Source: an uncultured Fodinibius sp. (GTDB lineage: Bacteria > Bacteroidota > Rhodothermia > Balneolales > Balneolaceae). From it: a stretch of 63,487 nt of DNA. Below are positions 1 to 4,282 of the stretch, one piece after another. Location: positions 1 through 63,487 of the forward strand of contig CAJXMW010000009.1 in assembly GCA_913056235.1 (NCBI GenBank), read 5' to 3'. The notes under the pieces were generated by a model, which saw only the letters and a program-made list of their open reading frames with translations, ran no database searches and had not been told where the DNA came from. A program made the translations under genes and the position numbers. The first letter of the stretch is position 1; every line of letters begins with the position of its first letter.

Positions 1-105
1 ACCCAGCCCGACAAGCCTGCCGTCGAGCAGCCCACTCCCGACGTCGACAATCCCGGCTTCAGCACCGAGCAGGAAATGCAGCCTATCGTCGACAAACCCG
101 AATAA
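1..105 (+). CDS. C-terminal tail of a proline-rich acidic protein (partial)
   Basis: An open frame runs from the first base to a TAA at 103-105, giving 34 residues rich in Pro, Asp, Glu and Gln (it begins TQPDKPAVEQ and ends VDKPE). The 5' end lies outside the window. The base composition is more GC-rich than the gene that follows. No domain can be recognised from this fragment. Low-complexity Pro/acidic tails are common in envelope proteins of this lineage, but function cannot be assigned. Confidence 0.55.
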   Translation, partial: TQPDKPAVEQPTPDVDNPGFSTEQEMQPIVDKPE

Positions 106-217: not shown

Positions 218-3200
218 ATGTTGCTGTACCTTTTGCTCAGCGTACTTCAAATTTTCGGTTCTGCTAATAACGATTTAGTAAAACAGTCCAAAGAACAGGC
301 TGAATTTTACATCAGCAACATTCAACAAGAGAAACAACTCGATGAGAATCTCTGGGCCTTAACATTAATAACATCTGAACATCCAGAGGTTCATAACTTT
401 GTAGAAGAAAAAGTACAGAACAAGAAGTACACGGGAACAATACTTTCTCAGTTTAGGAATATTGACGAGAAATTCGACAGCCAACTGGAAAAAGTCGTAT
501 TTACTTCCGGTTCTTCTGACTTGTTGATTGCCCTTCTTTTAGAAAAAGAGACCCAGAAAAAGAAAAAAGATACATACCACAGATTCCAATCAATATTTGA
601 CCATAGTCCGAGTAGTAGTATAGATTACCATACACTCTGTAAAAAGATTATTGAGGGCAAAAAGGTTGGGGCAAGCGAATTACCTGTAAAATCATTCCAC
701 CTCCCTCATTTCTTTATCCTTTTTGAATACTCAGACTTTTTGGTAGACAAGTACTTACCAACTATTGCCCAGAAATGGGAACCCAACCCATCTTCTACTC
801 AAGATGTACATAAGACACTTGCCAACGCCAGCCTTCTGCGCGTGATGTACCTGGAAAGCAACTATTCCAGTATAAAACCTCTGTACAGTACGCTTCTAGA
901 AAATAAGCTAATTCCCACCTCTTCCATTAAACTACGTCTCTACCGGTATTTGGATTATTCCATGTACCGGCTGGGTTATTATGACCGCAGCCTAAAAATT
1001 GTTAGGAATTTCACCCTCCCCATCTCAGACTACCTGAATAAAAAAGCAACTAATCTACAGCTCAAGCAGTTGCAGGGCGTGTATTTATATAGCATTGGAA
1101 AAATTAAGGCTGCAGCAACCATCTATCAGGAAGTATTGACCTCTGTAGATAAAAAAAATCCGAAAGTCAGACTTTCATCATTATACGCAAATCTAGCACT
1201 TACATACCACAGACTTGGTAAATACGATCAATTTCTAGATCTACAATTTCAGGCATTACAAATAGCAAAACGTGATGAGAATTATAACCATCAAATCGAA
1301 ATTTTCAGGAATCTATTTATTTATTACAGGAGAAATAATAACAAAAACGAAGCCCTTCAATATTTAGAAAAAGCACAGCAGGTAGCTCAAGAAAAGGGCA
1401 ACTCAAGAGATTTGGGAAGTATATATATCTCTCTTGGTACTACATACCGAAAGTTTGACAACAATTTTGAAAAGGCTCAGTACTACTTCAGTAAAGCTGA
1501 AGAAGTCTTAGATCCCCAAAATAATTTTACTACCTACATAAATCTTTTAAACGAACAGGCTTACGCTTATGAAAAAAAGAGTGAATATAAAAAGGCGATA
1601 AAAAAATATGACCAAATTGATAGCCTATCATCCAATAAGAACAAAAAAGATGAATTAGATGCCTTAATAAATAAGGTAATAAATTACCTGAGAATTGGTG
1701 AAACTAATAAGTCAAAAGAATTGATCACAAAATTTAAACAATATGACCTTAGTCAGTTAGACTTTGAAAAAATTATCAAAGCAAAGACAGTAGAAGCAAA
1801 CTATTTGAAAAGAAATACTCATACGCAAAAAGCGCTCGATATTCTAAATCCAGCTTTAGAACAAGTCGTAGTAAGAGCTAAAAGCAGCGCTGATTTAGAA
1901 TCAGGTTTCTGGCATATTGAGGATGAATACCTGGATGCTTTTGAGTTAGCGGTTTCCATCTACCAAGATATTGGCAAACCGGAGATGGCTATTCAAAAAC
2001 TGGATCAGCTTAAAACGATCAATGATGCCTCCTTGTATCAGAATCCGCTGGTAAAATCGAGCCTGTTGAACGAGTCGGAGCTTACACAGTACAAAAAGCT
2101 GACCGACCAGCTGGATGCCACACGAAAAAAACTACTGACCGCATCAGAGAGCGAAAAGTTTGAGATTAGGCAACAAATCAGTCAGCTCAAACTAAAGAAG
2201 CGCAAACTCGACAAGAAGCTGACCAAAAATATCGACACCAATCCAATTTCAATCCGGCAGATCCAGAACCAGCTCTCTGCCCATGAGCTGGCGATGCATA
2301 TCACCGAGCTTAAAGACAAATATTACATTGCTCACATATCGCGCTCCAACGTACACATGAAGAGCATTGCGCTTGACTCCACAAAACGAAAATTACTTTC
2401 CGGGGCCGTGCAGCAAGTGGCCACACACAAGACAAATTTGGATTCCCTTTATAAAATTACCCAGATGCTTGGACTAAAGGATATTCCCAGCCGTATTGAG
2501 CAAGTTACGCTCATCCCGGACAGCTACTTCTATCAGCTACCCATCGATATTCTGCCCCTTGAAGAACCCACCCACAGCTATAGTTACGGGCAAGCAAAAT
2601 ATGTTATCGAAGAATTCAGAACCCAATACCTAACCTCACTCGAGGATTTTCAAAATCCCAGGAAGAAAGTTAGCACCAATAACCCATTGAGCTACGTTGG
2701 ATATGGCGTCTCCAACTTCAGCGGATATCAGAAAAAATCGCTTGTGCCCCTGCCCTACGCTCAAACCGAGATAAACAATATCGCATCCCGGCTGGGGAAC
2801 CTATCCGACATCCAAACCTTTGTTAATGAGCAGTCAACAAAATCAACATTTACCCAAACAGCCCCCAAAGCAAATATTATTCACCTGGCTACGCACAGTG
2901 AGGTATCACTAAACGATCCCATGTTTTCAAGCGTCTATATGAGCAAGACCAGCAGTTCGGCCGATACCAGTACTTTTGATGACCGGATTTTTGCCTACGA
3001 ACTCTTTGAGCTGAATCTTAACAACGAAATGATCATGTTAAACTCTTGTGAGTCAGGCTCAGGATCTTACATTCAGGGCACTGGTGTGATGGGCTTTAGC
3101 CGGGCACTACAATATGCGGGTGCCAAATCACTTATCCTGAACCTTTGGTCGGTCAACGACATGCTGGCCTCCGATTTTGCCACTCACTTTTATGATGAGC

Positions 3201-3442
3201 TAAATCAAGGTAAAAACAAGGCCGAGGCTTTACGCGCTACCAAACAGTACTTTCTGCGCAACAAAAATGCCAGTCCGCACTTCTGGGGACCTTACATGCT
3301 GATCGGTGATGCGCAACCCATCGTTCAGCCTAACAAAGATAAAAATCTGGCCATGGCGGGTGCATTCGTCTTTTATTTTCTACTGATGGTAGGACTCTCT
3401 ATTCTTACTCAGAAAGGCCTCATTTTTCGGAACAGGGAATAA
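218..3442 (+). CDS. TPR-CHAT domain protein, membrane-anchored caspase-like peptidase
   Basis: 1074 residues. A short hydrophobic N-terminus (about 1-15) looks like a signal peptide or anchor. A long helical region with TPR-like repeats spans about 200-620, with a Lys-rich coiled coil at about 626-670. A C-terminal CHAT domain (caspase-like, HetF-associated) covers about 760-1040, with the expected His-Cys dyad at H893 (in LATHS) and C944 (in NSCESG). A final hydrophobic segment at about 1046-1066 is followed by a short basic tail. In this family TPRs sense or bind partners and the CHAT domain cleaves proteins. The topology suggests an extracytoplasmic protease tethered to the membrane, which is an inference. 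The middle third is clearly more AT-rich than the C-terminal half. It converges on a TPR membrane protein (3551-4282) that may be functionally linked. Confidence 0.88.
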   Translation: MLLYLLLSVLQIFGSANNDLVKQSKEQAEFYISNIQQEKQLDENLWALTLITSEHPEVHNFVEEKVQNKKYTGTILSQFRNIDEKFDSQLEKVVFTSGSSDLLIALLLEKETQKKKKDTYHRFQSIFDHSPSSSIDYHTLCKKIIEGKKVGASELPVKSFHLPHFFILFEYSDFLVDKYLPTIAQKWEPNPSSTQDVHKTLANASLLRVMYLESNYSSIKPLYSTLLENKLIPTSSIKLRLYRYLDYSMYRLGYYDRSLKIVRNFTLPISDYLNKKATNLQLKQLQGVYLYSIGKIKAAATIYQEVLTSVDKKNPKVRLSSLYANLALTYHRLGKYDQFLDLQFQALQIAKRDENYNHQIEIFRNLFIYYRRNNNKNEALQYLEKAQQVAQEKGNSRDLGSIYISLGTTYRKFDNNFEKAQYYFSKAEEVLDPQNNFTTYINLLNEQAYAYEKKSEYKKAIKKYDQIDSLSSNKNKKDELDALINKVINYLRIGETNKSKELITKFKQYDLSQLDFEKIIKAKTVEANYLKRNTHTQKALDILNPALEQVVVRAKSSADLESGFWHIEDEYLDAFELAVSIYQDIGKPEMAIQKLDQLKTINDASLYQNPLVKSSLLNESELTQYKKLTDQLDATRKKLLTASESEKFEIRQQISQLKLKKRKLDKKLTKNIDTNPISIRQIQNQLSAHELAMHITELKDKYYIAHISRSNVHMKSIALDSTKRKLLSGAVQQVATHKTNLDSLYKITQMLGLKDIPSRIEQVTLIPDSYFYQLPIDILPLEEPTHSYSYGQAKYVIEEFRTQYLTSLEDFQNPRKKVSTNNPLSYVGYGVSNFSGYQKKSLVPLPYAQTEINNIASRLGNLSDIQTFVNEQSTKSTFTQTAPKANIIHLATHSEVSLNDPMFSSVYMSKTSSSADTSTFDDRIFAYELFELNLNNEMIMLNSCESGSGSYIQGTGVMGFSRALQYAGAKSLILNLWSVNDMLASDFATHFYDELNQGKNKAEALRATKQYFLRNKNASPHFWGPYMLIGDAQPIVQPNKDKNLAMAGAFVFYFLLMVGLSILTQKGLIFRNRE

Positions 3443-3446
3443 AATA

Positions 3447-3492
3447 AAAGTGTAAGCCTGATATGAGATATATCAAACTTACACTTTGTTTT
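3447..3492. terminator. Bidirectional terminator between convergent genes
   Basis: A perfect 10-bp stem (arms at 3447-3456 and 3478-3487) is flanked by T-rich sequence on both strands. It lies between the stop of the CHAT gene and the end of the minus-strand TPR gene, so it can serve both. Confidence 0.7.
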
Positions 3493-3550
3493 CGCAAATT
3501 CTCTTATTCGAGGAAATTATTTAAACCGATCGACCAACAGTGCTGTATGC

Positions 3551-4282
3551 TTATTCGGCAAGCGCATCGAGATAACTCTTGGCAACACGGCGATATGCCC
3601 CATTAAGTTCATAGGCTTTTTCGATATTGGTCTCCGCTTCAACCAACTTATCCTTATGGAAGAAAGCGTTTCCTACATACCAGTATGCCTTTTCAAGCAT
3701 TAACACATCTACATGCTCTTTATTGGCAATAACATTGCGATAGTATTTGATCGCTTGATCATACTTCGCCTGGTTATAGTAAAGCGATCCCAAATTCAGG
3801 CTCAATTTGGCCACCCATTCTGGTTTAGAAGCCTTTTCAAGTTCAGAGTTGAGCAACGAAATAGCTTCACCAACACGACCGGTATTTGCCAGCTCAATAG
3901 CATCACTAATTATGCCCGACTGTGCATCCGTATCAATCGTTCCATTACCCGAGCGGTAGTAATCCAGCTCTACGCTGGGTACCGGCTGTACCGGGGGAGA
4001 TTGATCTGCGGAATAGTTCATCACACCAATGACGCCAATGAGTAAGGCGATAACGGCAGCCGCAGCATAATACCAATACTGTTTGGTTTGGCTTTTCTTT
4101 CGCTCCTCTCTCCTGCGTTCAACAACTGCTTTCAGATTTGCAGCACTTTTAAGATAATCCAGATGATATCCATCCTGAATTAACTCCGACCATAATTCAT
4201 CGACTTCCTCGGCCGAAAGCTGACCATTAATATACAGGTCAATCTTTTCCTCTAGTTCTTTTTTGTTAAAACTCTCAATCAT
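3551..4282 (-). CDS. Anti-sigma-like single-pass membrane protein with TPR domain
   Basis: 243 residues. The cytoplasmic N-terminus (1-66) has the helical pattern typical of anti-sigma and FecR-like regulators, with a 'YINGQLSAEE' motif, but no zinc-binding His/Cys cluster. One transmembrane segment follows at about 70-89. The extracytoplasmic part (about 132-243) holds two to three TPR-like repeats, with motifs such as NLGSLYYNQAKYDQAIKYY. No sigma factor gene lies in the window. The gene faces the CHAT-TPR gene tail to tail. Proteins of this layout often stand beside CHAT-TPR genes in Balneolota-like genomes, which is family knowledge from memory. A role as a signal-transducing partner is an inference; it could equally be a plain TPR scaffold. 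Confidence 0.6.
   Translation of the reverse strand: MIESFNKKELEEKIDLYINGQLSAEEVDELWSELIQDGYHLDYLKSAANLKAVVERRREERKKSQTKQYWYYAAAAVIALLIGVIGVMNYSADQSPPVQPVPSVELDYYRSGNGTIDTDAQSGIISDAIELANTGRVGEAISLLNSELEKASKPEWVAKLSLNLGSLYYNQAKYDQAIKYYRNVIANKEHVDVLMLEKAYWYVGNAFFHKDKLVEAETNIEKAYELNGAYRRVAKSYLDALAE

Follow-up and report, generated by a model that had tools for sequence, protein, structure and literature searches.

A conserved Balneolales locus with a sigma factor, a putative anti-sigma factor, a lipoprotein array and a predicted periplasmic CHAT protease: a candidate envelope-stress module

The 4-Mb genome of an uncultured Fodinibius sp. (assembly GCA_913056235.1; G000), whose closest named relatives belong to Fodinibius/Aliifodinibius (Balneolaceae), includes a contig of 63,487 nucleotides (CAJXMW010000009.1; C9), which was analysed as a whole and is called the window here. 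At its left end two genes lie tail to tail, one encoding a TPR-CHAT protein (CHAT_A) and the other a TPR-containing membrane protein (ASF_A), and the contig edge cuts the locus to which they belong. The full locus in Balneolales consists of a gene for an extracytoplasmic function (ECF) sigma factor (sigma_A), a divergently oriented array of 1–6 near-identical lipoprotein genes, CHAT_A in the orientation of the array and, convergent to it, ASF_A; the window holds the right half. In G000 the sigma_A gene is located near the end of another contig (C3), which stops within a lipoprotein gene of the array, and the last 77 bases of C3 are identical to the first 77 bases of the window. A preliminary description of the window had overlooked the lipoprotein remnant and the sigma factor beyond it because the contig ends there. 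The array is broken in the same way in G025, G018 and G029, where one contig carries sigma_A and lipoprotein genes and a different one CHAT_A, a pattern that a tandem repeat would be expected to give. Since the break in G000 falls at this place, we infer that its array has two or more copies.

CHAT_A is a protein of 1074 amino acids in which Pfam detected the CHAT family (PF12770) with 180.7 bits (cut-off 24) and TPR families at about residues 321–512. The candidate catalytic residues H893 and C944 were invariant in all 34 aligned sequences, so that the CHAT domain and the His-Cys dyad of clan CD are both present and CHAT_A is a putative cysteine protease. The N-terminus has a hydrophobic peak which exceeded every internal window of 11 residues in 32 of the 34 sequences (two N-termini, L144 and L145, had probably been assigned a wrong start by the script), and a hydrophobic span near the C-terminus was found in 29/34. 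From hydropathy and composition, the CHAT domain most likely faces the periplasm. The signal, repeats, dyad and span as well as the placement of the CHAT domain outside the inner membrane had been read from the window before and agree with these results. A predicted structure with a predicted local distance difference test (pLDDT) value of 85.9 was compared with solved structures; it aligned with Csx29 (Z 25.6, root-mean-square deviation (rmsd) 8.4 over 576, and Z 24.9, rmsd 5.1 over 450), separase (Z 24.0, rmsd 3.5 over 305), DdvA (8rot; Z 20.5, rmsd 10.4 over 518, model residues 340–1030) and the gingipain RgpB (Z 18.6, rmsd 3.4 over 272). Csx29, separase and DdvA were reached only through this comparison of folds: when the sequence of the CHAT domain by itself was compared with solved structures there was no match, and a profile search with the whole protein gave TPR proteins among the best 60 of 70 matches. 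In one genome (G014, L072:6941-10233) CHAT_A is made up of three reading frames, due to decay or a sequencing error, and at L139 and L140 two tandem CHAT_A genes precede one ASF gene.

ASF_A has 243 amino acids, matches TPR families in Pfam and contains one transmembrane span. In 39 out of 39 aligned sequences more lysine and arginine residues were found on the N-terminal side of the span and, therefore, the N-terminus is placed inside and the TPR domain outside; taking hydropathy and composition together, the TPR domain is most likely periplasmic and the N-terminal domain cytoplasmic. The model (pLDDT 79, low near the span) comprises N-terminal helices followed by the TPR domain. The preliminary description had drawn the same topology, which holds, and had called the inner helical segment anti-sigma-like; a helical N-terminal domain inside the cell, joined to a single span as in anti-sigma factors, is indeed predicted from hydropathy, lysine and arginine distribution and the model. 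ASF_A is also encoded and apparently regulated together with a sigma factor, as seen from the locus, from a common promoter-like motif (see below) and from a paralogous system. In 17 of 18 paralogue loci (exception: L100) an ASF paralogue directly follows an ECF sigma gene, and this is also the case elsewhere in G000. Because of this arrangement too, we regard ASF_A as a putative anti-sigma factor. The second locus of G000 (L004:6415-17562 on C1) carries two CHAT genes, M28 and ScpA genes on the opposite strand and the ECF sigma gene with the ASF paralogue directly behind it; a CHAT gene lies alongside 15 of the 18 sigma/ASF-paralogue stretches.

To what extent the genes keep together was determined in genome collections of increasing breadth. 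CHAT_A was found (≥300 bits) in 48 of 58 genomes of the family, and ASF_A was tail to tail with it in 44 of these 48. The pair was present in 40 of 41 named loci, L124 being without it; 36 of the pairs were called by the script and L123, L134, L137 and L145, with gene overlaps of 2–23 bases, were added, and the 41 loci are 42 minus L149, a weak match from Acidobacteria. At least 2.5 kb of upstream sequence was available at 25 named loci, of which 22 had the sigma gene (not L123, L135 and L139) and 24 a lipoprotein gene (not L139); of the 13 named loci in which no lipoprotein was found, 12 have less than 2.5 kb upstream. Of ten loci in three further families of the order, 10/10 had the pair, 8/10 the sigma gene (L190 is at a contig edge, in L194 none was found) and 9/10 lipoproteins; L185 and L192 among them are the same contigs as the named loci L145 and L138. 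CHAT_A matches above 400 bits were confined to the order among 195 genomes of the class, and the ASF profile (E ≤ 1e-15) matched only that order, in 42 genomes, among 296 genomes of the phylum. Since named loci and G genomes overlap, these tallies are not independent. The pairing of CHAT_A and ASF_A is far beyond chance, and the co-occurrence of the two genes and the nearby sigma factor, both named beforehand as expected marks of a regulatory pair, were thus recovered. Among 20 CHAT loci of other Bacteroidota, hand-picked from among 67 CHAT-containing genomes (of 148), a sigma match near CHAT was found in 2 (one 5.6 kb away) with a narrow sigma profile built from Balneolales. One CHAT gene outside the order (L384:4978-9284, G298) is convergent to an ECF-like sigma gene.

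The products of the sigma genes were assigned by NCBIfam: sigma_A reached 44.4 bits with the ECF family TIGR02937 (cut-off 42.9) and the paralogue sigma_B of G000 reached 46.9 bits, and both are therefore ECF sigma factors, although the matches of sigma_A to Pfam Sigma70_r2 and r4 were below the cut-offs.

The array lipoproteins are about 60 amino acids long, with mature parts of 40–52 residues and a mean net charge of −6.5. In 31 of 39 distinct lipoproteins the pattern [IV][IVL]x[KR]P was found not more than 6 residues from the end; one of the eight others is cut by unknown bases, and related endings (IVIIKPD, VRIRPE) were seen in the order's other families. When 32 copies from loci with several copies were compared, each had its nearest match within its own locus, and the mean identity was 0.96 within loci (23 pairs) versus 0.39 between loci. 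Three lipoproteins were compared with Pfam, giving no match for two and one match of 13.8 bits for the third, and with NCBIfam, where the best match was PG1828_fam_lipo (20.9 bits, cut-off 50); no family was above its cut-off. A hand-made rule which requires Cys-Ala after the lipobox was used to recognise the lipoproteins, and the alanine following the cysteine in 46 out of 46 is therefore built in. Eight candidates dropped by this rule appear unrelated to the array lipoproteins, and without it Ser or Thr follows the cysteine in two of nine loci of the other families (L189, L191). The conserved tail may be a ligand, a pseudosubstrate or a substrate. The features of the window are collected in Table 1.

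Table 1. Features of the locus at the left end of the window.
Feature	Position	Strand	Evidence
Array lipoprotein gene, 3' end (34 codons + stop), tail ...EMQPIVDKPE; contig starts inside	1..105	+	77-base overlap with C3 (5' part with lipobox on C3), arrays in relatives
CHAT_A, putative exported TPR-CHAT cysteine protease with C-terminal membrane span	218..3442	+	Pfam, alignment, model, fold matches to Csx29 and separase
CHAT catalytic domain, residues 756-1031; H893 at 2894-2896, C944 at 3047-3049	2483..3310	+	Pfam, alignment
CHAT_A C-terminal transmembrane helix (predicted), residues 1040-1065	3335..3412	+	Hydropathy, model helix
Inverted repeat between the convergent genes, arms 3447-3456 and 3478-3487, possible two-way terminator	3447..3487		Sequence reading
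ASF_A, putative anti-sigma factor, one span, N-terminus inside; N-terminal helices residues 3-63, predicted periplasmic TPR residues 122-242	3551..4282	-	Pfam, model, hydropathy
ASF_A transmembrane span (predicted), about residues 69-93	4004..4078	-	Hydropathy
Promoter-like motif TGTAACA-N15-ACTCTTG before ASF_A, 128 bases to start codon	4411..4439	-	Motif scans

The lipoprotein array and ASF_A share a promoter-like motif. TGTAACA, with ACTCTTG or a close variant usually following a 15-base gap, was found in the 200 bases upstream of the first lipoprotein gene in 19 of 25 loci (0.7 in resampled sequence) and of ASF_A in 30 of 39 (31 if TGTAACG is included; 1.2 in resampled sequence), whereas it was before CHAT_A in 1/27, before later lipoprotein copies in 0/20 and before the sigma gene in 0/22 cases. 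In the ten loci of the other families TGTAACA preceded the ASF gene in 10/10 and was present in the array interval in all 9 that were readable, with a varying second box; at L185–L194 a receiver-like gene (about 190–200 amino acids, by eye) separates the ASF gene from its TGTAACA site. A second tally gave the motif at 18 of 22 ASF_A genes versus 1 of 182 other upstream regions, paralogous locus included, and is partly circular because the motif was derived from overlapping loci. Less circular is a genome scan with a reversed control: the full motif had 102 sites in 12 Fodinibius genomes and the reversed pattern 2. Sites were found in all ten genomes with sigma_A (221–412 bits) and in neither F. 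sediminis (G132, matched by coordinates to L135) nor F. roseus (G134, likewise to L123), which have only a sigma_B homologue (126–133 bits). Since sites are present only in genomes with sigma_A, the motif is tied to sigma_A. Judged from the motif positions, CHAT_A would be outside the sigma_A regulon.

For the 102 sites 77 regions were taken, which gave 79 site readings with 73 distinct downstream proteins; as downstream gene we chose the longest frame with a start not more than 450 bases away. The readings form 35 groups of downstream genes, of which 15 recur in at least two genomes, and one member per group was analysed with Pfam. Recurring targets were an Hpt protein (7 genomes), an M23 peptidase (6), a receiver protein (5), an AraC-type regulator, a subtilase and an HU/DUF4469 protein with a patatin behind it (3 each) and an AcrB-type pump of the resistance-nodulation-division efflux family (2). 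The Hpt gene is followed by a holin-like protein in the three genomes read, with a Phage_holin_4_2 match (Pfam) in the one scanned. The predicted regulon reads as an envelope response. Such envelope-type genes behind the motif sites argue against an anti-phage or abortive-infection system with a caspase-like executioner, an idea that stems from the known role of CHAT proteases in immunity and from Csx29 being the nearest fold. Also, the catalytic domain is exported according to hydropathy, and the presence of CHAT_A in most genomes of the family makes a core function likelier than mobile defence. A search in PADLOC gave no match at E ≤ 1 for CHAT_A or ASF_A, and the defence-system reading was rejected as very improbable.

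Taken together, we propose that the locus is an ECF sigma/anti-sigma envelope-stress module of Balneolales in which periplasmic CHAT_A probably acts as site-1 protease and the lipoproteins serve as ligand or substrate, a reading to which we give about an even chance of being right as a whole. At rest, the N-terminal helical domain of ASF_A would hold sigma_A at the inner face of the membrane, with its TPR domain outside. The exported CHAT_A, tethered by its C-terminal helix, would cut ASF_A on the outer side of the membrane, leaving other proteases to free sigma_A. In what is the weakest step, the lipoproteins, with their acidic flexible middle, may bind to CHAT_A or to a TPR groove via the conserved tail and thereby set the protease activity; they could, for instance, signal how well lipoproteins are transported to the outer membrane. 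Freed sigma_A would then transcribe the lipoprotein array, ASF_A as feedback and envelope genes, but, going by the motif positions, not CHAT_A.

Several observations weigh against this module. No described anti-sigma family was among all 18 Pfam families listed for ASF_A, and its NCBIfam anti-sigma match had 12.9 bits (cut-off 100); likewise, none was among the best 25 of 41 Pfam matches for 39 ASF members, and Foldseek gave no match to the model at E ≤ 0.001 and mostly TPR proteins among the 50 matches listed. A match to a described family would support an anti-sigma role but does not define one. Hydropathy is the one line of evidence for export of CHAT_A, and of the 34 sequences 19 have more lysines and arginines after its C-terminal span than before it, 10 have as many on either side and 5 go against the rule with fewer after it. 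Adjacency of CHAT_A and ASF_A fails in G012, G018, G050 and G008, the motif is missing in the 200 bases upstream of 6/25 arrays and 8/39 ASF genes, and 20 of the 35 groups of downstream genes were found in a single genome. Furthermore, F. sediminis and F. roseus are without sigma_A and retain the array, CHAT_A and ASF_A; because these two species keep all three, CHAT_A, the array and ASF_A are linked to one another independently of sigma_A, and the absence of sigma_A may be one common loss. In both species the tail of the lipoprotein is altered (PIITGGPRGGR, PIITDGPGTGGR), and upstream in L135 there are genes which we take to be of the pstB/phoU type.

Lipoproteins or other targets could be the substrates of CHAT_A. 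If the lipoproteins rather than ASF_A were cut, their tail would be trimmed or released, and sigma_A/ASF_A would set the amount of lipoprotein only. This is a possible though unlikely account that fits with the array remaining next to CHAT_A where sigma_A is lost, and with the positions of the 48 lipoprotein matches in 22 of the 58 family genomes: 40 are beside CHAT_A on its contig and the other 8 beside sigma_A, seven of them on G025:C38, G018:C89 and G029:C73 and one at the end of G000:C3. A CHAT relative, Csx29, cuts one partner protein, Csx30 (PMC10028731). The tail-to-tail ASF gene, however, is conserved as well as the array. In addition, the lipoprotein tail usually contains [KR]-P, which is a poor cleavage site for most proteases.

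Other genes flanking the locus, such as a TlpA-like gene, recur there likewise. CHAT_A and ASF_A might share nothing but TPR-type scaffolding and neighbourhood, ASF_A being released by a conformational change or another protease and CHAT_A carrying out unrelated envelope proteolysis; that CHAT_A has no motif would agree with this. We consider this distinctly unlikely in view of the tail-to-tail placement kept across four families and of the CHAT genes that are also found near the sigma_B/ASF_B paralogues.

To our knowledge, CHAT proteases are widespread in bacteria and few have known partners. If the proposed sigma/anti-sigma module is true, an ordinary stress pathway would employ a CHAT protease located outside the inner membrane and linked to the sigma factor by a promoter signature, which would suggest a chromosomal, non-CRISPR counterpart to the type III-E control of a sigma factor by CHAT proteases; the locus also gives a context to the small lipoprotein family. 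No title among the literature matches listed describes this arrangement, with subscription papers outside the coverage.

Known systems resemble the proposed module in different parts. In type III-E CRISPR systems an inhibitor of a sigma factor is cut, and the sigma factor is, in the model given there, thereby freed (PMC10028731). Judged from the CHAT_A model, CHAT_A and the protease of this Craspase (Csx29-Csx30-CASP-sigma) are TPR-CHAT proteases of the same fold, but CHAT_A is predicted to be exported and membrane-tethered, the putative anti-sigma factor is a one-span TPR protein and a lipoprotein array is added; Cas7-11 was not noticed beside CHAT_A, where neighbours were classed by size and similarity to genes of the locus and no search was aimed at Cas7-11. 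DegS and AlgW are membrane-bound periplasmic site-1 proteases, gated by the C-terminus of an envelope protein that is mislocalised or small (PMC8545111). By analogy, the module would follow the logic of DegS/RseA and AlgW (MucE), a site-1 protease gated by a C-terminus, although the ligand is assigned here by inference and CHAT_A would use a CHAT cysteine instead of the serine of an HtrA-type protease; no PDZ domain was among its 11 listed Pfam families (CHAT, TPR types, SNAP and Sel1). DdvA of Myxococcus xanthus is a transmembrane anti-sigma factor whose ECF partner is DdvS (PMC4374960), and its solved structure aligned with the CHAT_A model over the TPR and CHAT parts; DdvA is one polypeptide, whereas here the anti-sigma-like and the TPR-CHAT parts are two proteins and lipoproteins are added. 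In ECF54, a CHAT protein is encoded near an ECF sigma factor and proteolytic control has been proposed, as in the locus described here, but this group is described without an anti-sigma factor (PMC8999054). The predicted fold of the catalytic domain is, finally, also that of separase, which differs in its cellular place and partners, and by analogy with securin we speculate that the lipoprotein tail might act as a pseudosubstrate of CHAT_A.

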